NCBI GenBank assembly: GCA_014896295.1
Contig: JADBKR010000007.1
Span: forward strand, 186,001-250,000
Origin: Limnochordaceae bacterium
Lineage (GTDB): Bacteria > Bacillota > Limnochordia > Limnochordales > Geochordaceae
Direction: 5' to 3'
DNA: 64,000 bases
Position 1 is the first letter of the stretch. Each line of letters starts with the position of its first letter. Under the pieces are notes generated by a model. It saw only the letters and a program-made list of their open reading frames with translations. It ran no database searches and was not told the origin of the DNA. Shown one piece after another: positions 20,932 through 31,305 of the stretch. Both the position numbers and the translations under genes were made by a program.

Positions 20932-21979
20932 CTACGGCGTCTCGCCCTCTACGCCCGCCGCTTCCACCACCACGGCGGGGCAATCGCCGTCCACCGTGAC
21001 GGGAACGCCGAGCGGCAGGGTCAGCCGGGCAGGGCCATGCCCGGCGGCGAGCCCGTATACCGCCGGCTTGCCCCGAGGGAGCAGGATGTCGTCGAGCACC
21101 TCTCTGACCGTGAGCGTGGGGCGCTCCGGTTCGGGCGGCAGGCAGTCGACGCACTCGGCGACGACGAACCCTGCCGCCTCGTCGAGCTTGCCCGCCAGAG
21201 CCAGGTGCGTGAGCATGCGGTCGAGCCGGTACGGCGCCTCCCCCACGTCCTCCAGAAGCAAGATGCGGCCCCTGGTGTCGATCTCGTAGGGCGTTCCGAG
21301 CGTGGAGACCAACAACGACAGATTGCCGCCGACCAGCAAGCCCGTCGCCCGCCCGGGATGGAGGGTCTCGAGCGCGGGCCCACCCGCCGGGTTGACCAGC
21401 CGGCCCAGGGGCTCGGGGCGGGTGACGGCCCGCAGGAACGCACTCCAGGTGAACGCCACCCCCGCGTCCTGGATCGCTCCCGGGTGCGGCGTCTCCCCCA
21501 GGCCATGCCTCTCCCCCTGGCCGGATGTCTCCCCCGTAGATGGGCGCTGCACGGCGAAGTCCCGGGCGAGCGCCCCGTGGAACGTCACCAACCCCGCCAG
21601 CTTGCCGATGGCGACGTGAAGCGCCGTGATATCACTGTATCCCACGAAGACCTTGGGGTGGGAGGCAATGGCCCCGTAGTCCAGCAGCCGGAGGATGCGA
21701 AGCGCCCCGTAGCCGCCTCCGATGCACACGATCCCCTGAACGTGCGGATTGGTGAAGGCGTCCATCAGGTCGGCCGCCCGGTCGGCATCGTTGCCGGCGA
21801 GGTAACCCCGGGCGTCCAGGGCGTGGCGCCCCACGACGGTGCGGAAGCCCGCGCCCTCGAGCCACGCCCGGGCTCGTTCCACGGTTTCGGGCGAAAGCAC
21901 GTTGTCCTTGTAAGGGGGCGACGCGGGCGCAGATCAGAGCCACCGTATCACCGGCGGCCAGGGCTCTGGGACGGCGCAT
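20932..21979 (-). CDS. S66-family LD-carboxypeptidase (LdcA-like), one frameshift
   Basis: Peptidase of family S66, which cleaves the terminal D-Ala from murein tetrapeptides during wall recycling in the cytoplasm or immunity-type substrates. Visible: GGGYGALRILRLLDY, catalytic-Ser region VGYSDITALHVA, GGNLSLLVSTLGTP, LLLEDVGEAPYRLDRML (catalytic Glu) and C-terminal AGHGPARLTLPLGVP (catalytic His). The N-terminal MRRPRALAAGDTVALI is in another frame; the shift is near 21915-21925 before YKDNVLSPETVERAR. ATG 21979 with GGAGCGG upstream. Convergent with thiE. Confidence 0.85.
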
Positions 21980-22702: not shown

Positions 22703-23464
22703 TCAGGGCCCACGGCGGCCACGAAAGGCCCAGGTCGCGTAGCCCACGTAGTCGACCGCCGCCGTGACGGCCAGGCCGACCGGCCGGGCCAAGAATGGCC
22801 ACGACATGCCCGGCTGCACGCCGGGTTGCCACCCTTCGGGCAGGCGCCCGCCGCAGCCCAGGGCCGTCACTCCCGCCCCCAGCGCGGCCCCGAGGAGGCT
22901 CACCACCACGAAGCGCGCCGCGCTCCCCGGCCTCCGGAAGACCCACCGCCGTTGGAGATCATAGCTTTGCGCCATGCCCAGGCCGGCGGCCACCATGGCC
23001 ACGGCCCCCACTTCCCACGGCGCACGCGGGCGCAGCAGCAACACGCCCAGGGTAAACGCGCGCAGTCCACGTCCCGCACCCGCACGCCGAGCAGGACGCG
23101 CACGAGCCAGTTCCACCCGGCGGCGTTGATCCGCCGCACGAGCGGGTCACGCCGCGGCGCCCGGTAGCCGATGACCAGGGCATGCCACCCACTCGCCCCT
23201 CGCCGCTGCGAAGGCCGTCCGCAGCGCCGCGCCGTACCCCCGGTTGGCAGGATGGCGAACCAGGCGTACCGCCGGATGGCGCCCGGCCACCCGGGCCACG
23301 ACGGAGGCGGTGGCGTCCTCGCTGCCGTCGTCTACCACGACGACCTCGTGAGAGAGCCCTCTTTCCCGCAGGAACCGGAGAACCGCCTCGATCGTCGCCC
23401 CGACGCTGGCCTCCTCGTTGTAGGCCGGCAGAACCACCGTGAGGTGAGGTTGCGAGGCGTCCAC
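22703..23464 (-). pseudogene. Broken GT2 glycosyltransferase-GtrA fusion gene
   Basis: Remnants of a dolichol-phosphate-mannosyltransferase-like GT2 domain fused to a GtrA membrane domain. From GTG 23464 (GGGGGAGG upstream) the N part reads TVVLPAYNEEASVGATIE, VVVDDGSEDATASV and NRGYGAALRTAFAAARGEW, then stops. A second piece in another frame, LVIGYRAPRRDPLVRRIN to VRVRDVDC, is the late GT2 region; a third frame gives GtrA helices with LQRRWVFRRPGSAARFVVVS and YVGYATWAFRGR. The piece with the catalytic DxD motif and about 100 residues between RDVDC and GtrA are missing. Intact relatives are roughly 350 aa or more. Deletions plus frameshifts make a functional product unlikely unless assembly is faulty. 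Confidence 0.75.
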
Positions 23465-23659
23465 GGCCGAGTTCCTCCCCCGGCAGCGGGGCATGGAAGC
23501 GTCCTTGCTGCCGTCCGGGCCGTAGTCTGCCCGGCCGCCGCCCGCGCCTGCCCGCCGGGACGATCCAGCGATCCTGCATACATGCCAGGCGTGGCAGGAC
23601 AAGCCGCGAAGGCCAGAGAACACCAGGGGCTAACACCGAGGGGAGCTGGTGAAACGTCC

Positions 23660-25210
23660 ATGGCCGCGCAACGAAGCAGGCCTAAACTGAAGGGGTTATC
23701 GTTCCTCCTGGCCATCGTGGCTACGCTCACAGTCGCAGGGTGGGGGGCGGCCTCGCCCGCCACGGTCACGGTCGCGGTCGGTGCGGACGCAGTCCGGCTG
23801 GATCCGCCGGACATGACGGACAACCCGTCGGAGACCGTGCTCCGCCACATCATGGACGGGCTCGTCGAGTTCGACGAGCAACTGCAGATCCGCCCCGCCC
23901 TGGCGGAGCGGTGGGAGTTCCAAAACGGTGGGAAGGACGTCGTGTTCTATCTGCGTAAAGGCGTTCGGTTCCACGACGGCACGCCGTTCGATGCCGCCGC
24001 GGTCAAGGCCAACTTCGACCGGATCCTGGCGGGAGGGCTCCGGCGGACGTCGCTGTACGAACCGTACATACAGAGCGTAGAGGCGAAGGACACGTATACC
24101 GTCGTCTTCCATCTCAAGTTTCCGTTCGGGGCGTTCCTGCACCACCTCGCTCATGGGGCCGGCCTCATCCAGTCCCCGTCCAACATCCGGCGCTGGGGCG
24201 ACAAGGTCGGCCAGCACCCGGTCGGCACCGGGCCGTTCAAGTTCGTCGAATGGGTGCCCGGCGACCACATCACGCTGGAGGCCAACAAGCAGTACTGGAA
24301 GGGCGCTCCCAAGTTCGACCGGCTCGTCTTCCGGGTCGTGCCGGAGGATGCCACCCGGGTCTTCCAGCTGGAGACCGGAGAGGCCGACGTCATCACCTTC
24401 CTGCCGCCGAGCGAGGTACCCCGCCTGCGCGCCAACCGGGACCTCGACATCCGGGTGGCCGACAGCCTCCGGGTCATCTACGTCGGCTTCAACGTGTTGC
24501 GCAAGCCGTTCGACGACGTGCGGGTGCGCCAGGCGGTCAACTACGCCATCGACAAAGAGCTCATCGTCTCGCAGGTGCTGGGCGGCATGGCCTCCGTCTC
24601 CGACTCACCCATGGCGCCGGGCGTCAACGGGTACTGCAAGACCGGCGGATACCCGTACGACCCGGAGCGGGCGCGCCAGCTGCTCAAGGAGGCCGGCTAC
24701 CCCCAGGGCCTGGAGGTCAGCCTCTGGGCTCCGCAGGGGCGGTACCTCAAAGACTACGAGACGGCGATCGCCATCCAGGCCATGCTCCAGCAGGTGGGGA
24801 TTCGCGTCCGGCTCCAAACGATGGAATGGGCGACTTACTTGCGCAACATCTTCGACGTCCCCAAGGAGCAGGCCCAGTACCAGATGTACATGCTCGGATG
24901 GGCTCCCTCCACGGGCGACGCGGACTGGGTCATGCGGCCGCTCCTTTCGTCCCAGTCCTTCCCGCCCGGGGACAACGCCAGTTACTACGGCAACCCCAAG
25001 GTGGATCAGCTCATTCAAGAGGGGATGCGCACGAGCGATCCCGACGCGAGGGCCCGGATTTACTGCGAGGCGCAGAAGCAGGTCGTGGCGGACGCGCCGT
25101 GGGCCTTTCTCCACGTGGTCAAGCAGGTCGTCGGGGTGCGCGCCTCTTTGCAGGGCGTGAAGGTACTCCCCATCGAGATCGTACTGGTGAAGGACGCGTC
25201 GAAGAAGTAA
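23660..25210 (+). CDS. Peptide/opine ABC substrate-binding protein (SBP family 5)
   Basis: 516-aa extracytoplasmic binding protein of the DppA/OppA family. N-terminal signal KLKGLSFLLAIVATLTVAG with a site near AASPA and no lipobox cysteine. Family marks: LDPPDMTDNPSETVLRHIMDGL, WEFQNGGKDVVFYLRKGVRFHDGTPF, GTGPFKFVEWVPGDHI and VRQAVNYAIDKELIV. ATG 23660. Leads the operon with DppB/DppC-type permeases and an isoaspartyl dipeptidase; the ligand is therefore likely a short (perhaps isoaspartyl) peptide. Confidence 0.92.
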   Translation: MAAQRSRPKLKGLSFLLAIVATLTVAGWGAASPATVTVAVGADAVRLDPPDMTDNPSETVLRHIMDGLVEFDEQLQIRPALAERWEFQNGGKDVVFYLRKGVRFHDGTPFDAAAVKANFDRILAGGLRRTSLYEPYIQSVEAKDTYTVVFHLKFPFGAFLHHLAHGAGLIQSPSNIRRWGDKVGQHPVGTGPFKFVEWVPGDHITLEANKQYWKGAPKFDRLVFRVVPEDATRVFQLETGEADVITFLPPSEVPRLRANRDLDIRVADSLRVIYVGFNVLRKPFDDVRVRQAVNYAIDKELIVSQVLGGMASVSDSPMAPGVNGYCKTGGYPYDPERARQLLKEAGYPQGLEVSLWAPQGRYLKDYETAIAIQAMLQQVGIRVRLQTMEWATYLRNIFDVPKEQAQYQMYMLGWAPSTGDADWVMRPLLSSQSFPPGDNASYYGNPKVDQLIQEGMRTSDPDARARIYCEAQKQVVADAPWAFLHVVKQVVGVRASLQGVKVLPIEIVLVKDASKK

Positions 25211-25214
25211 GGCC

Positions 25215-26136
25215 ATGACGCGCTATCTGGTGCGGCGCACCGGCGTGTTGCTCGTCGTGCTGCTCGGCATCGTCGCCGTGACGTTCGGCCTGTTGCGGGT
25301 GGCTCCGGGGGACCCGGCCCGGCTCATCGCCGGGCCGGACGCTCCTCCCGAAACAGTGATGGCGCCTTCGACACGAGCTCGGGCTCGACCGGCCCATGGC
25401 GGAGCAGTTCGTGCTGTTCGTGGGGCAGGTCGTGCGCGGCGACCTCGGGCAATCTTTCCAAACGGGGCGACCCGTACTGGAGGAGATCGGCTGGCGGTAC
25501 GTCAATACCGGTATCCTGGCGCTCACGGCCGTCGGGCTGGCAAGCCTGGCGGGTATCGCCGCGGGGATGCTGGCGGCCCGCTACCCGTACAGCGCGGTCG
25601 ACAGCGCCATCATGTCCGGAGCGCTGGCCGGAGTGTCGGCGCCGGTCTTCTGGCTCGGCTTGCTGTTGATGTGGCTGTTCGCGGTCAAGCTGAGGTGGCT
25701 ACCGACCAGCGGGGCAGGCAGCCTGCGGCACCTGATCCTGCCGGCCATCACGCTCGGGGCGGCGCTGACGGCCACCATCGCGCGGATGACCCGATCGAGC
25801 CTGCTCGAAGTCATCGAGGAGGATTACATCCGCACCGCACGGGCGTACGGCGTGGCCGAGAGGTCTATCCTGCTACGGCATGCGCTGCGTAACGCCTTCC
25901 TCCCCATCCTCACCGTCATCGGGCTGCAGCTGGGGTACTCACTGGCCGGCGCAGTGCTGACGGAGTCGGTCTTCGCCTGGCCGGGCATGGGGCGGCTGAT
26001 CGCCGGCGCCATCTTCACCCGGGACTACCCGGTGGTGCAGGCCGGGCTGCTGGTCGTGGCCGTGACGTTCGCCGCCATCAACTTCGCGGTGGACGTCCTG
26101 TACGCCTGGCTCGACCCACGGATTCGCTACGACTGA
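25215..26136 (+). CDS. Peptide ABC permease, DppB type, one frameshift
   Basis: Inner-membrane permease with N-terminal MTRYLVRRTGVLLVVLLGI and LRVAPGDPARL, and C-terminal EAA-loop EEDYIRTARAYGVAERSILLRHALRNAFLPIL, AVLTESVFAWPGMGRL and DPRIRYD. The frame shifts near 25355-25364, between PPETV and LRHELGLDRPMAEQF; both sides match the family so an indel error is likely. Four bases after the binding-protein stop. Joined length about 306 aa, as usual. Confidence 0.85.
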
Positions 26137-26180
26137 CGAGGAGAGCGGGGTAGGTCATTCTGCAAGCTGCGTCCGCCGAG

Positions 26181-27053
26181 GTGCTGCGGGAAGGGACAGG
26201 CGCCCGGAGCCCCGCATGGCGGGTATGGCTCCGGACACCGGCGGCACGTGTGGGGGCCGTGGGAGTCGCGGTGTTCGTGGGCATGGCGTTGTTCGCGCCG
26301 TGGCTCGCCCCCTACGACCCCAACCGCATCGACCTCACGCGCATCCTGCAGCCGCCCTCTGCCGGGCACTGGCTCGGCACCGACCAGTTCGGCCGGGACA
26401 TCCTGTCGCGGATCGTGTGGGGCGCACGCATCTCGCTCACGGTGGCGGTCGCCTCCCTGGGGTTGGCGGCCGTGGCAGGGATCCTGCTCGGCGCCGTCGC
26501 AGGTTACCGGGGCGGCTGGATCGACGAGGCCGTCATGCGCCTGACGGACGTGCTCCTCTCTTTCCCGGACATCATGCTCGCCATCGCGGTGACCGCCGTC
26601 CTGCCGCCGGGGCTCCCCAGCGTGATCCTGGCCATCGGGGTGTACAACCTGCCCCAGGTGACGCGGGTGGCGCGGGGCGCCGTCCTCAGCATCCGGGCCA
26701 ACCTGTACGTGGAAGCGGCCCGCGCCGTCGGCCAGCGCGACGGCGCCATCATCCTGCGCTACGTGATCCCCAACGCTCTCCCGCCCGTAGTCGTGTTGCT
26801 GACCCTGCGGACGGCGGCATCGATTCTGACGGCGGCCGGGCTCAGTTTCCTCGGGATGGGCATCCAGCCGCCCACGCCGGAGTGGGGGGCCATGATCAGC
26901 GAGGCCCGGGTCTACCTCGTGACCGCCCCGCATTTGAGCCTGGTGCCCGGTATGGCGATAGCGGGGACCGTGCTCGCCTTCAACTTGCTGGGCGATGCCC
27001 TCAACGACGCGTTGAACCCTCGTGCCCGAAAAGCGCTGGGAAGAGGACGCTGA
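26181..27053 (+). CDS. Peptide ABC permease, DppC type
   Basis: 290-aa permease: YDPNRIDLTRILQPPS, WLGTDQFGRDILSRIVWGARISL, EAA-loop YVEAARAVGQRDGAIILRYVIPNALP and FLGMGIQPPTPEWGAMI. An in-frame TAG at 26151 limits the start; GTG 26181 is used, though ATT or CTG codons near 26157 lie closer to the GAGGAG at 26139. Pairs with the DppB-type subunit. No ATPase gene follows, so DppD/DppF-type subunits must be shared or encoded elsewhere. Confidence 0.9.
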   Translation: MLREGTGARSPAWRVWLRTPAARVGAVGVAVFVGMALFAPWLAPYDPNRIDLTRILQPPSAGHWLGTDQFGRDILSRIVWGARISLTVAVASLGLAAVAGILLGAVAGYRGGWIDEAVMRLTDVLLSFPDIMLAIAVTAVLPPGLPSVILAIGVYNLPQVTRVARGAVLSIRANLYVEAARAVGQRDGAIILRYVIPNALPPVVVLLTLRTAASILTAAGLSFLGMGIQPPTPEWGAMISEARVYLVTAPHLSLVPGMAIAGTVLAFNLLGDALNDALNPRARKALGRGR

Positions 27054-27058
27054 GAAAC

Positions 27059-28267
27059 GTGCCTGCGCGACGAAGCACCGGTGACCCCTCGTCTCTCCTG
27101 ACCCTCGTTCGTTGCCGCCAGGTCTGGGGGCCGGCCCCCACCGGCGCCGACACGTTGCTGCTCGCGGGCGGGAAGGTCGCCTTCGTGGGGCGCGACCTGC
27201 GACCGCCCGAAGGGTGGCCCGTTACCGTCGTCGAGGAAGTGGACGCCGACGCCGTGCCGGGGTTCATCGACGGGCACGTGCACCTGACCGGGGGAGGCGG
27301 CGAGGGCGGGTTTGCCACCCGCTGCCCTGAGATGACCCTGGAGCAGATCACGGCCGCGGGGGTCACCACGGTGGTCGGGCTGCTGGGCACCGACGACGTG
27401 ACCCGCCACCCCGACTCGCTGCTCGCCAAGGTGCGGGCCCTCGAAGCACAAGGGATTTCGGCCTACATGTACGTCGGGGCCTACGCCGTGCCCCCGGTGA
27501 CCCTGACCGGGAGCGTCAAGCGGGATCTGGTGCTGATCGACGAGGTCGTCGGGGTCGGAGAGATCGCCATCTCGGACCACCGCTCCTCCCAACCGACGAT
27601 GGAGGAGCTGAAGCGCCTGGTGGCCCTCGCCCGGGTGGGAGGCATGCTGAGCGGTAAACGAGGGATCGTCCACTTCCACGTGGGAGATGGCAAAGAAGGA
27701 CTGCGGCCGCTGTTGCGCATCGCCGAGGAGACGGAGATCCCCATCGGCCAGATGGTGCCGACCCACGTCAACCGCAACGGGCGCTTGCTGGACCAGGCCG
27801 TGACCTACGCCCTTCGCGGCGGCACGGTGGACGTCACGGCCTTCGAGTTTCCATCAGGAGAGTCGGTCAGCGCGCCCGAAGCCATCCTGTACATGGTCGG
27901 CAAAGGCGTGCCGTGGAGCCGGATCACGCTCAGCTCGGACAGTAACGGCAGCTTGCCGGAGTTCGACCCGTCGGGGCGCCTGGTCGGCATGCGGGTTGCC
28001 AGCATCGACGCGCTGTTCGCCGACTGGAAGCGCCTGGCATCCTCTCCCGGCGTGAGCCTGGAAGATGCGCTGGGCGTGGTGGGGGCCAACGTGGCCCGGG
28101 TCCTGGGGCTCGAGGGCAAGGGGGGCATCGCGCCGGGCATGGACGCGGACTTCCTCCTGTTGAATCCCGACCGCACGATCCGCCAGGTGTGGGCGCGGGG
28201 CCGGCCGCTTCGAGGCAACCTCCCGCCTGCCGCAACCGGCAGCCAGTCGCCTGCTCGTGGCAGGTAG
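27059..28267 (+). CDS. iadA: Isoaspartyl dipeptidase (beta-aspartyl peptidase)
   Basis: 402-aa amidohydrolase-superfamily zinc enzyme that cleaves beta-aspartyl (isoaspartyl) dipeptides formed by protein ageing. Metal-site HVHLTGGGGEGGF, TTVVGLLGTDDVTRHP, AYMYVGAYAVPPVTLTGS, EIAISDHRSSQP, VHFHVGDG, PTHVNRN and LSSDSNGSLPEFD follow the IadA pattern closely. GTG 27059 lies six bases after the permease stop, with AAGAGG upstream. Joining it to a peptide importer suggests uptake and breakdown of isoaspartyl peptides. No signal peptide: cytoplasmic. Confidence 0.92.
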   Translation: MPARRSTGDPSSLLTLVRCRQVWGPAPTGADTLLLAGGKVAFVGRDLRPPEGWPVTVVEEVDADAVPGFIDGHVHLTGGGGEGGFATRCPEMTLEQITAAGVTTVVGLLGTDDVTRHPDSLLAKVRALEAQGISAYMYVGAYAVPPVTLTGSVKRDLVLIDEVVGVGEIAISDHRSSQPTMEELKRLVALARVGGMLSGKRGIVHFHVGDGKEGLRPLLRIAEETEIPIGQMVPTHVNRNGRLLDQAVTYALRGGTVDVTAFEFPSGESVSAPEAILYMVGKGVPWSRITLSSDSNGSLPEFDPSGRLVGMRVASIDALFADWKRLASSPGVSLEDALGVVGANVARVLGLEGKGGIAPGMDADFLLLNPDRTIRQVWARGRPLRGNLPPAATGSQSPARGR

Positions 28268-28364: not shown

Positions 28365-28401
28365 GGGGGACGGATGACTGGAGAGGGAGGACCTGTAATC
28401 C

Positions 28402-31305
28402 ATGCCGCGCCTGTCCCGTTCCGTCCTCTTCGCTCGTCTCGCCCTGTCGATGGTTATCCTTGCTGTGACGATGGCAGCTCCGTTCGCCGGCCCGGCGCAA
28501 GCCGGCGAGCGTTGGTGGACTCTGGAAACTCCCCACTTCCTGATCCACTTCCCCGACGGGTACGAGCCCCTGGCGCGCCAGGTGGCCGAGGTGGCCGAAC
28601 GGGTGCACCCCGTGGTCTCGGCCCGGGTCGGCCACACGTTGGCTGCCAAGACGCACGTCGTGCTGCAGGACGTGCTCGACGGAGCCAACGCCTTCACGCA
28701 GCCCGCTTTGTACAACCAGATCAGCCTGTTCACCGTGCCGCCGCTGGGACTGGCCTATCAGGCGGGCATGCCGCCGACCATGAACGACTGGCTCGAGCTC
28801 CTCTTCACTCACGAGTACGTCCACGCGGTGCACCTCGACATGGCCGACGGTCTTTACGCGGGGCTGCGCCGCATCTTCGGCCACGTGCCCACATTGTCGA
28901 CGCCCAACGCCAGCGAAAACTACGCGTTCATCGAGGGGTACGCGTCGTACGAGGAGACGCTGCTCGACGACGGGCGCGGGGCTGCGTCGTACTGGGACAT
29001 GTTCCTGCGAACGGCCTTCCTGGAACAGGCCGTGCCGGCGCCCGACCAGGTGGCAGGCCTCTACGATCTCGGCCAGTGGAACCCTGCCGGCGGCGTCTAC
29101 CTGTACGGCTACTCCTGGCAGGCGTACCTCGCCGAGCGGTTCGGGGATCCGGTGGTCAGCCGGGTGCACCAGCTCAACGCGAGCCTGGGGTCCCTGGGGC
29201 GGAGCGTCACGGCCGCCACCAAGGAGGGCCTGGGCGAGCTTTACGACGGATGGCGGCGTTCGCTGCAAGAGCGTTACGCTGCCCAGGAGCGGGACGTGGA
29301 GGCCCGGGGCCTGACGGCTTTCGAGCTGCTTCCCGGCGAGGGGTGGGTGGTGGAGCAGCCGCGGTTTTCTCCGGACGGCAAGTCGCTCGCCTACCTGGCG
29401 GCAGGGGGTACCGTCAACGCCTCGATCCGCATCCGGGATCTGGCGACCGGCAAGGAAAGGGCGCTGGCGGAAGGGGCCACCGGGGGATTCGACTGGACTC
29501 CGGACGGCCGTTACCTGGTCTACGCCGCGCTCGCGCCGGTGGAGGGAGGCCGGCGCCAGCTATCCGACCTGTTCGCAGTCGAGGTGAGCACCGCCAAGAG
29601 CTACCGGCTGTCGACGGGGCTGCGCGCCTTCTCGCCGGCCATCTCCTCGGATGGGCGCAGCGTCGCCTTCGTGCAGGTAGACGGCACCTCGTTCGGCGCG
29701 CACGTGGCGGTGGCGGACCTGTCGGTCGAAGGCGACCGGCCGGTCATCGGCCCCGCGGAGCGATGGTACACGGGACGAGACGGGACCTTCGCGATGAGCG
29801 TCGCCTGGCAGCCGGGGTCAAGGCGGCTGGCGGTGGGTTGGGCAGGCCGTGGCCGCAACGGCATCAGCCTGCTCGAGGGCCCGGGCGACACGCCGCTGTC
29901 CCTCGTCGAGGAGAAAGGGCCGGTCGCGGTCGCCAACCCGTCGTTCACCCCGGATGGGCGCTACCTCCTGTACGAGTCGGACCGGACGGGGGTCACCAAC
30001 CTCTACGCGCAGGACCTGGGCAGCGGCCGCACCTACCAGCTCACCAACGTGCTCACCGGCGCCTTCTTCCCGGCGGCCTCGCCCGATGGCCGGCGTCTCG
30101 CCTTCGCCGCGTACACGGCCGGGGGCTACCGCGTCGCCGCCATGCCGCTCGACCGCTCGGCGTGGCGGGAGCCCGATCCCCCCTTCGAGGGACCGCACTG
30201 GGAGCGCGCGGCGTGGCGCAAGAGCGTCGAAGCGGGCGCCAACGAAGGCGGTCAAGCAGACCCGTCCACCTACACGCTGCGCCCGTACTCCCCGTGGCCC
30301 AGCCTCGCCCCGACATGGTGGCTGCCCTTCGCCGGCGCGGACGGCGCGGGATGGTCCCTGGTCACCATGACCGGTGGGTGGGACGCTCGCATGCAGCACA
30401 TCTATAGCGCCGTGTTGACTTACGGGTTCTCGAGCCGGTTGGTCGGGGGCGCGCTCTCGTACCGGTGGCTCTCGGATCCGTTGTTCAACACGGGATGGTC
30501 GGTGAGCGCCCTGGTGTCGAAGGGGCAAGACGTGAAGAAGCCGGAAGAGGGACAGGCCGGCGCTCCCACCACGGTCTACCCCCGGTGGGATGCGTCGGTG
30601 TCGGTAGGCTACACGCTCGACCGCAGCATGACCTTCGCCAGCCCGGTCCGCGACACGTTTTACGCGGGGCTCGAGGGCAGCCGGCGCGAGGGCCCGCAAA
30701 CCTCCTCCGACGCCATGGCGTTGGGCGGCTGGACCCGGACCTCCGCCTGGGGCCCCGGCCGGGCGCAGCGCTCTCGTACCCTCGGCCTGGAGGCCGGATC
30801 CCCGCTCGCCGGCGACGATCGCCCGTACGCGCTCGCCCGGTGGGAAGAGGGCCTGGACTGGCGGCTCGGCGGATCGGTCGCCATGCGGATGGCTGCCGCC
30901 GTGAGCGACGGCGGGTCCGTCATCACCCTGAGCCAGGGTCACCCCCTGGAGCTGCGCGGCCTGCAGGGGGACGAGGGGAAGCCCCCGGCGCCTGGCACGT
31001 CGGCTTACAAGCTCACCCTGGAAGGCCGTGCTCCCCTGGCCCGCATCAACCGGGGGCCGGGCCTGTGGCCGGTCTTCCTGGGTGAGGTCGCGCTCGTGCC
31101 GTTCCTCGACGCGGGAGTGGTCGCCGGCGTGCGCAACCGGCCCGACCGGCCGTTCGTCGCGGCCTCCGTGGGCGCCCAGGTGCAGCTGGACGTCTACCTC
31201 TCCTACGGGTCGGTGCGGCTGCGTCCTGCCCTCGGAGCCGCTTACGTCTTCGGAGAGGCCGTCGACCGACCGCAGTGGCGTCTCGTCGGAAGCGTGAGCT
31301 TTTGA
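28402..31305 (+). CDS. Secreted metallopeptidase / beta-propeller / predicted outer-membrane barrel protein
   Basis: 967-aa exported protein with three parts. Residues 1-35: signal peptide (hydrophobic LALSMVILAVTMAA, site after AQA). About 36-310: peptidase-MA-like domain with zinc motif HEYVH (137-141) and downstream IEGYASYEE glutamates. About 315-610: TolB-like propeller blades, each with SPDG/TPDG followed by R-x-L-x-Y/F (FSPDGKSLAYL, WTPDGRYLVYA, FTPDGRYLLYESDRTG, ASPDGRRLAFA). About 640-967: alternating hydrophobic/polar strands rich in aromatic and Gly residues, ending VGSVSF; a C-terminal Phe is the outer-membrane barrel signature. ATG 28402. The barrel is an inference; propeller and peptidase motif are seen directly. 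Confidence 0.8.
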   Translation: MPRLSRSVLFARLALSMVILAVTMAAPFAGPAQAGERWWTLETPHFLIHFPDGYEPLARQVAEVAERVHPVVSARVGHTLAAKTHVVLQDVLDGANAFTQPALYNQISLFTVPPLGLAYQAGMPPTMNDWLELLFTHEYVHAVHLDMADGLYAGLRRIFGHVPTLSTPNASENYAFIEGYASYEETLLDDGRGAASYWDMFLRTAFLEQAVPAPDQVAGLYDLGQWNPAGGVYLYGYSWQAYLAERFGDPVVSRVHQLNASLGSLGRSVTAATKEGLGELYDGWRRSLQERYAAQERDVEARGLTAFELLPGEGWVVEQPRFSPDGKSLAYLAAGGTVNASIRIRDLATGKERALAEGATGGFDWTPDGRYLVYAALAPVEGGRRQLSDLFAVEVSTAKSYRLSTGLRAFSPAISSDGRSVAFVQVDGTSFGAHVAVADLSVEGDRPVIGPAERWYTGRDGTFAMSVAWQPGSRRLAVGWAGRGRNGISLLEGPGDTPLSLVEEKGPVAVANPSFTPDGRYLLYESDRTGVTNLYAQDLGSGRTYQLTNVLTGAFFPAASPDGRRLAFAAYTAGGYRVAAMPLDRSAWREPDPPFEGPHWERAAWRKSVEAGANEGGQADPSTYTLRPYSPWPSLAPTWWLPFAGADGAGWSLVTMTGGWDARMQHIYSAVLTYGFSSRLVGGALSYRWLSDPLFNTGWSVSALVSKGQDVKKPEEGQAGAPTTVYPRWDASVSVGYTLDRSMTFASPVRDTFYAGLEGSRREGPQTSSDAMALGGWTRTSAWGPGRAQRSRTLGLEAGSPLAGDDRPYALARWEEGLDWRLGGSVAMRMAAAVSDGGSVITLSQGHPLELRGLQGDEGKPPAPGTSAYKLTLEGRAPLARINRGPGLWPVFLGEVALVPFLDAGVVAGVRNRPDRPFVAASVGAQVQLDVYLSYGSVRLRPALGAAYVFGEAVDRPQWRLVGSVSF

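Follow-up and report, generated by a model that had tools for sequence, protein, structure and literature searches.

A Limnochordia protein with a peptidase-MA-like domain, a TolB-like propeller, and a predicted Omp85-type barrel

In a 64,000-nucleotide stretch of the genome of a Limnochordaceae bacterium (contig JADBKR010000007.1 of GenBank assembly GCA_014896295.1, positions 186,001 to 250,000; hereafter, the window), one long open reading frame had been predicted, from the sequence alone, to encode a secreted metallopeptidase-propeller protein that ends in an outer-membrane barrel. Is this a real gene, how would its product be placed in the envelope of a spore-forming member of the Bacillota, and what might it do there?

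First, we considered whether the frame is a gene. The host genome is 70% GC, and long frames often arise by chance in such a genome, so we gave less weight to the length of the frame than to three other observations. GC content at the first, second, and third codon positions of 28402-31305 is 0.70, 0.54, and 0.88; a second genome of this species has a copy with 16 synonymous and 12 non-synonymous codon differences (dN/dS of 0.27); and another genus of the same family contains a near-full-length relative with 56% identity. We conclude that 28402-31305 is a real gene. All of the sequence features that were originally reported for it are present, including HEYVH at residues 137-141, the SPDG/TPDG blades, and the final VGSVSF (Table 1). 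There is no lipobox cysteine in the signal peptide region.

Table 1. Features of the gene and of the encoded protein, with positions in the window
Feature	Positions	Strand	Basis
Shine-Dalgarno-like purine-rich stretch GGAGAGGGAGGA	28380..28391	+	10 bases before ATG; read from the sequence
Whole gene, 967 aa, ATG start	28402..31305	+	signal peptide, peptidase-MA-like domain, TolB-like propeller, Omp85-type barrel
Probable Sec signal peptide, residues 1-34	28402..28503	+	helix 6-28 in the model; AQA before GE; cleavage site inferred
Peptidase-MA-like (gluzincin) domain, residues 36-301	28507..29304	+	PF13485 in relatives; model
HEYVH 137-141; probable zinc ligands H137 and H141, probable general base E138	28810..28824	+	invariant in 64/64 family members
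E178-G179, probable third zinc ligand	28933..28938	+	invariant in 64/64; ligand role inferred from the gluzincin pattern
TolB-like beta-propeller, residues ~304-590	29311..30171	+	PF07676 (PD40), Pfam E 6e-24; structural matches
Omp85-type outer-membrane barrel (predicted), residues ~636-967	30307..31302	+	~16 model strands; hhalign to BamA barrels
RGL 852-854, counterpart of Omp85 loop-6 (V)RGF/Y	30955..30963	+	aligned with BamA RGY; between strands 825-835 and 867-884
FLDAG 901-905, counterpart of Omp85 strand-13 FxDxG	31102..31116	+	alignment with BamA barrels
C-terminal Phe 967, beta-signal end	31300..31302	+	chain ends GSVSF

Domains of the protein

An AlphaFold2 model built from an alignment of 64 sequences had a mean pLDDT of 85.8 and a pTM of 0.88. 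In this model, a signal helix (residues 6-28) is followed by an alpha/beta domain (36-301), a propeller that extends to about residue 590, a linker helix (599-613), and then a series of strands. (A model from the single sequence had a pLDDT of 33 and was unusable.)

The alpha/beta domain carries the gluzincin signature, which is HExxH plus a downstream glutamate, and it is the best conserved of the three domains across the family. The family was searched for with the pattern T[LM][EV]T[PE]H[FL]x[IV]H, which is located away from H137, E138, H141, and E178. Although these four residues lie outside the search pattern, they are invariant in all 64 members, which is a strong sign that an enzyme has been kept. 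PF13485 (Peptidase_MA_2) matched 13 of 46 relatives, with a best E value of 2.9e-9. On its own, the window protein scores below the Pfam cut-offs for PF13485 and, in its C-terminal domain, for PF01103 (Omp85), so both assignments rest on relatives and on profiles. A search of PDB sequences with a profile of the peptidase domain gave no significant match. Overall, the invariance of the HExxH motif and E178, along with the PF13485 matches in relatives, supports the peptidase-MA-like domain that was first proposed.

The propeller was also supported, both by PD40 repeats and by its fold. When we searched the PDB with the whole model, the search was filled by the propeller and propellers alone were among the matches; the top matches were to TolB, with Z scores of up to 26.2 over 240 residues (rmsd of 2.3). 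The protein does not reach the cut-off for the TolB equivalog in NCBIfam (TIGR02800; 90.7 bits, versus a cut-off of 343).

The C-terminal domain is, as judged from profile comparisons, homologous to the barrels of BamA and a member of the Omp85 superfamily. When a profile of nine C-terminal domains was compared to 18 BamA barrels with hhalign, they aligned across 258 columns (98.0%, E = 2.3e-13); as a negative control, a profile of the peptidase domain was compared to BamA barrels and gave 0.15% (E = 0.4). The model contains about 16 strands by DSSP, from residue 639 to 964, and the count varies with a low-confidence hairpin at 714-728. In Omp85 proteins such as BamA, an RGY motif lies in loop 6 and an FxDxG motif lies in strand 13. 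The model has the same layout: counting strands back from the C terminus, RGL sits in the long loop that joins strand 11 to strand 12, and FLDAG is part of strand 13. Across the 60 relatives with residues at the loop-6 motif, R is found in 53, G in 58, and Y or F in 55; the third position is L in the window protein. Near-complete relatives usually end with phenylalanine (49 of 70) or another aromatic residue (51 of 70 in all). PF01103 matched 16 of 46 relatives, and the list of families for these 46 includes no POTRA. Given the homology to BamA barrels, we describe this domain as an Omp85 barrel, with no POTRA domain detected. A search of PDB sequences with the barrel profile gave one weak match (E = 0.016), to a POTRA domain-containing protein (9ccg). 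So, of the BAM-type barrel that was originally proposed, the terminal phenylalanine is observed, a relationship to BamA is indicated by the profiles, and about 16 strands are predicted by the model.

Relatives and the host's envelope

A first scan of named genomes, with a single protein as the query, found no relatives. When the query was an alignment of N-terminal domains instead, the scan of named genomes confirmed 121 relatives, and 80 were kept. They are from the Bacillota, the Nitrospirota, the Myxococcota and other former Deltaproteobacteria, the Pseudomonadota, the Gemmatimonadota, the Bipolaricaulota (Acetothermia), the Margulisiibacteriota, the Poribacteria, the Neomarinimicrobiota, and others. 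The family thus spans about 10 phyla, many of them two-membraned, and includes further relatives within the same class as the host. A tree built from the peptidase domain unites the Bacillota sequences in one group (87/94) and places the window protein within a 98/96 group, and thus gives no sign that the gene was transferred into this lineage recently.

In a sample of 299 genomes of the host's phylum, relatives were found in a minority of genomes. Omp85 is present in all 26 genomes with a match that includes some of the peptidase part, as compared to 77 of the 299 genomes overall (P = 1e-17, hypergeometric test, uncorrected for kinship). Matches to the propeller only do not track Omp85 (8 of 43).

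The host genome contains a full-length paralog with 38% identity (G000:C8:433110-435962; L032/L123), which is syntenic with a 53%-identical copy (L174) from a different genus of the host's bacterial family. Four shorter and more distant proteins from the same phylum (L014, L019, L021, and L026) keep the peptidase part, but their C-terminal regions are divergent, with no clear RG[FY]. Also, a very long frame in the host genome (about 1,600 amino acids) has similarity to TolB-like propellers (L033, at G000:C8:323943-324380).

Does the host have an outer membrane into which a barrel could be inserted? On contig C8, we found a cluster that encodes BamA with POTRA domains, TamB, LpxC, LpxA, LpxD, LpxI, LptF/G, and an SLH protein, and Spo0A is encoded on contig C5. 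These findings support a diderm host with spore genes. The BamA, TamB, Lpx, and LptF/G genes and the predicted strands, about 16 in number, mean that neither of the results that would have spoken against the original prediction was obtained. A search of the genome for LptD (PF04453) gave no match. An 833-amino-acid protein without a Pfam match adjoins LptF/G and may be a divergent LptD, so we do not claim that LptD is absent. The region from 340000 to 377000 of contig C8 (G000; L121 and L122) is in itself a near-complete outer-membrane and lipopolysaccharide cluster in a Spo0A-bearing genome from the Bacillota.

The original prediction described the protein as unusual for such a lineage, which does not fit with these results. 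Diderm Limnochordia have been published, including a described Gram-negative spore-former (PMC11456536, citing Taib 2020 and Watanabe 2016). As the family is spread across many two-membraned phyla, its presence in two-membraned spore-forming Bacillota is expected.

The canonical BamA, which adjoins TamB, counts against one explanation of the protein's role: that it is a factor for barrel assembly or a scaffold, in which the propeller and the barrel form a platform like BamA and BamB, and the peptidase-like domain is secondary. Such a platform was proposed for the WD40-Omp85 subfamily by Heinz and Lithgow in 2014 (PMC4104836), and the motifs of the Omp85 barrel are kept. However, no POTRA domain was detected, and nothing in the family is conserved more strictly than the catalytic residues, which a scaffold would not need. 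We consider a scaffold to be an unlikely explanation.

Gene neighborhood and possible roles

Upstream of the gene and on the same strand (23171-28267 in the window) are genes for a family-5 peptide-binding protein, two permeases, and beta-aspartyl-peptidase (IadA; 451 bits for TIGR01975, versus a cut-off of 331). This block ends 135 bases before the gene, and a GNAT protein is encoded downstream. Further away, 6.5 kb upstream, is an LD-carboxypeptidase (S66), which is a murein-peptide recycling enzyme (20935-21900, - strand). The peptide-transporter neighborhood would fit with peptide scavenging, but different genes flank the 56%-identical relative, and the peptide-transport genes are not kept there. 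We therefore dropped the neighborhood as the main evidence and give it little weight. Among the relatives from across the phyla, we did not find a conserved gene neighborhood or operon.

Transporter and peptidase genes next door would suit a protease that the barrel exports to or displays on the cell surface, whether for feeding or for surface remodeling, as in the original prediction and in the type Vd model; and some relatives in the Omp85 superfamily can translocate proteins. We doubt this explanation, both because these neighbors are absent at the 56%-identical relative and because of PlpD, which is the archetype of the type Vd model and the best-studied fusion of an enzyme to Omp85. The enzyme domain of PlpD was long thought to be secreted but was shown to be periplasmic (PMC11116518), which argues against a cell-surface location here. 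By analogy to PlpD, and given the apparently even number of strands, the enzyme domain of our protein is probably periplasmic.

Another explanation is that the peptidase-like domain lacks protease activity or acts on the peptides of peptidoglycan, so that the protein helps to tether the envelope. TolB-like propellers bind Pal-type partners in the Tol-Pal system, and the LD-carboxypeptidase gene is nearby. This seems quite improbable to us, as HExxH and the distal glutamate are completely invariant and no peptidoglycan-binding domain was found in the family listing for 46 relatives.

The domain order, the family, the pattern of catalytic residues, and the outer membrane of the host are all either demonstrated or well predicted. 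As to function, we lean modestly toward a putative periplasmic metallopeptidase that is anchored in the outer membrane, has its POTRA domains replaced, and takes part in quality control or processing of envelope proteins. In place of the usual POTRA arms, such an Omp85 protein would carry a TolB-like propeller and, at its N terminus, a zinc-peptidase-like domain. The chain would be exported by Sec, and BAM would fold the barrel into the outer membrane, with the propeller and the peptidase hanging into the periplasm. The propeller might recruit or present partners, and the peptidase might cleave, in a zinc-dependent manner, proteins or peptides of the envelope near the membrane, as BepA does.

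More broadly, and more tentatively, the family may be an unrecognized class of zinc peptidases, found from the Myxococcota to diderm spore-forming Bacillota, which are anchored in the outer membrane, face the periplasm, and act in quality control or processing, with the Omp85 barrel as the anchor and a possible docking site. The strictly conserved peptidase active site turns an orphan family of WD40-Omp85 barrels into a testable enzyme family. Within the Bacillota, the tie to outer-membrane genes makes the family a possible marker of a diderm envelope in spore-formers.

Comparison with known systems

The closest kind of protein to have been described is the WD40-Omp85 subfamily of Heinz and Lithgow 2014, which has a propeller and an Omp85 barrel without POTRA domains (PMC4104836). 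Our protein is similar in that it has an N-terminal TolB-like propeller, a C-terminal Omp85 barrel, no POTRA domain, and relatives that are scattered over diderm phyla, with the 2014 members compared by their description only. The text of that article gives an N-terminal propeller alone and does not contain the word "peptidase" (PMC4104836); in contrast, a peptidase-MA-like domain precedes the propeller in our protein. It also does so in every relative in our set, but we had used this domain to search for them. In the literature that we searched, the name WD40-Omp85 is used by one paper, and "peptidase MA" joined with "Omp85" was not found, which is weak evidence of absence. It seems that the architecture is known, as WD40-Omp85, and that its catalytic domain was not pointed out before. 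Heinz and Lithgow also describe a "Metallo" subfamily, which they define by PF00149 (PMC4104836). PF00149 is the family of calcineurin-like phosphoesterases, and the "Metallo" subfamily is a different protein.

The protein resembles BamA and BamB in the homology and motifs of its barrel and in having a propeller alongside an Omp85 barrel. It differs in that it has no POTRA array and has an extra peptidase, and a BamB-type propeller is a separate lipoprotein. It resembles TolB in its propeller fold and PD40 repeats, but with a membrane barrel and a peptidase attached, and its score for TIGR02800 is far below the cut-off. Like PlpD and other patatin-like Omp85 proteins, it has an enzyme domain N-terminal to an Omp85 barrel; however, PlpD is a lipase rather than a peptidase, has a POTRA domain, and lacks a propeller. 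Finally, BepA is described as a periplasmic M48 metallopeptidase of outer-membrane quality control (PMC8423444). BepA belongs to another peptidase family, has TPRs instead of a propeller, and has no barrel as a membrane anchor; the likeness, which is by analogy only, is to a proposed zinc peptidase that would work where the outer membrane is assembled.
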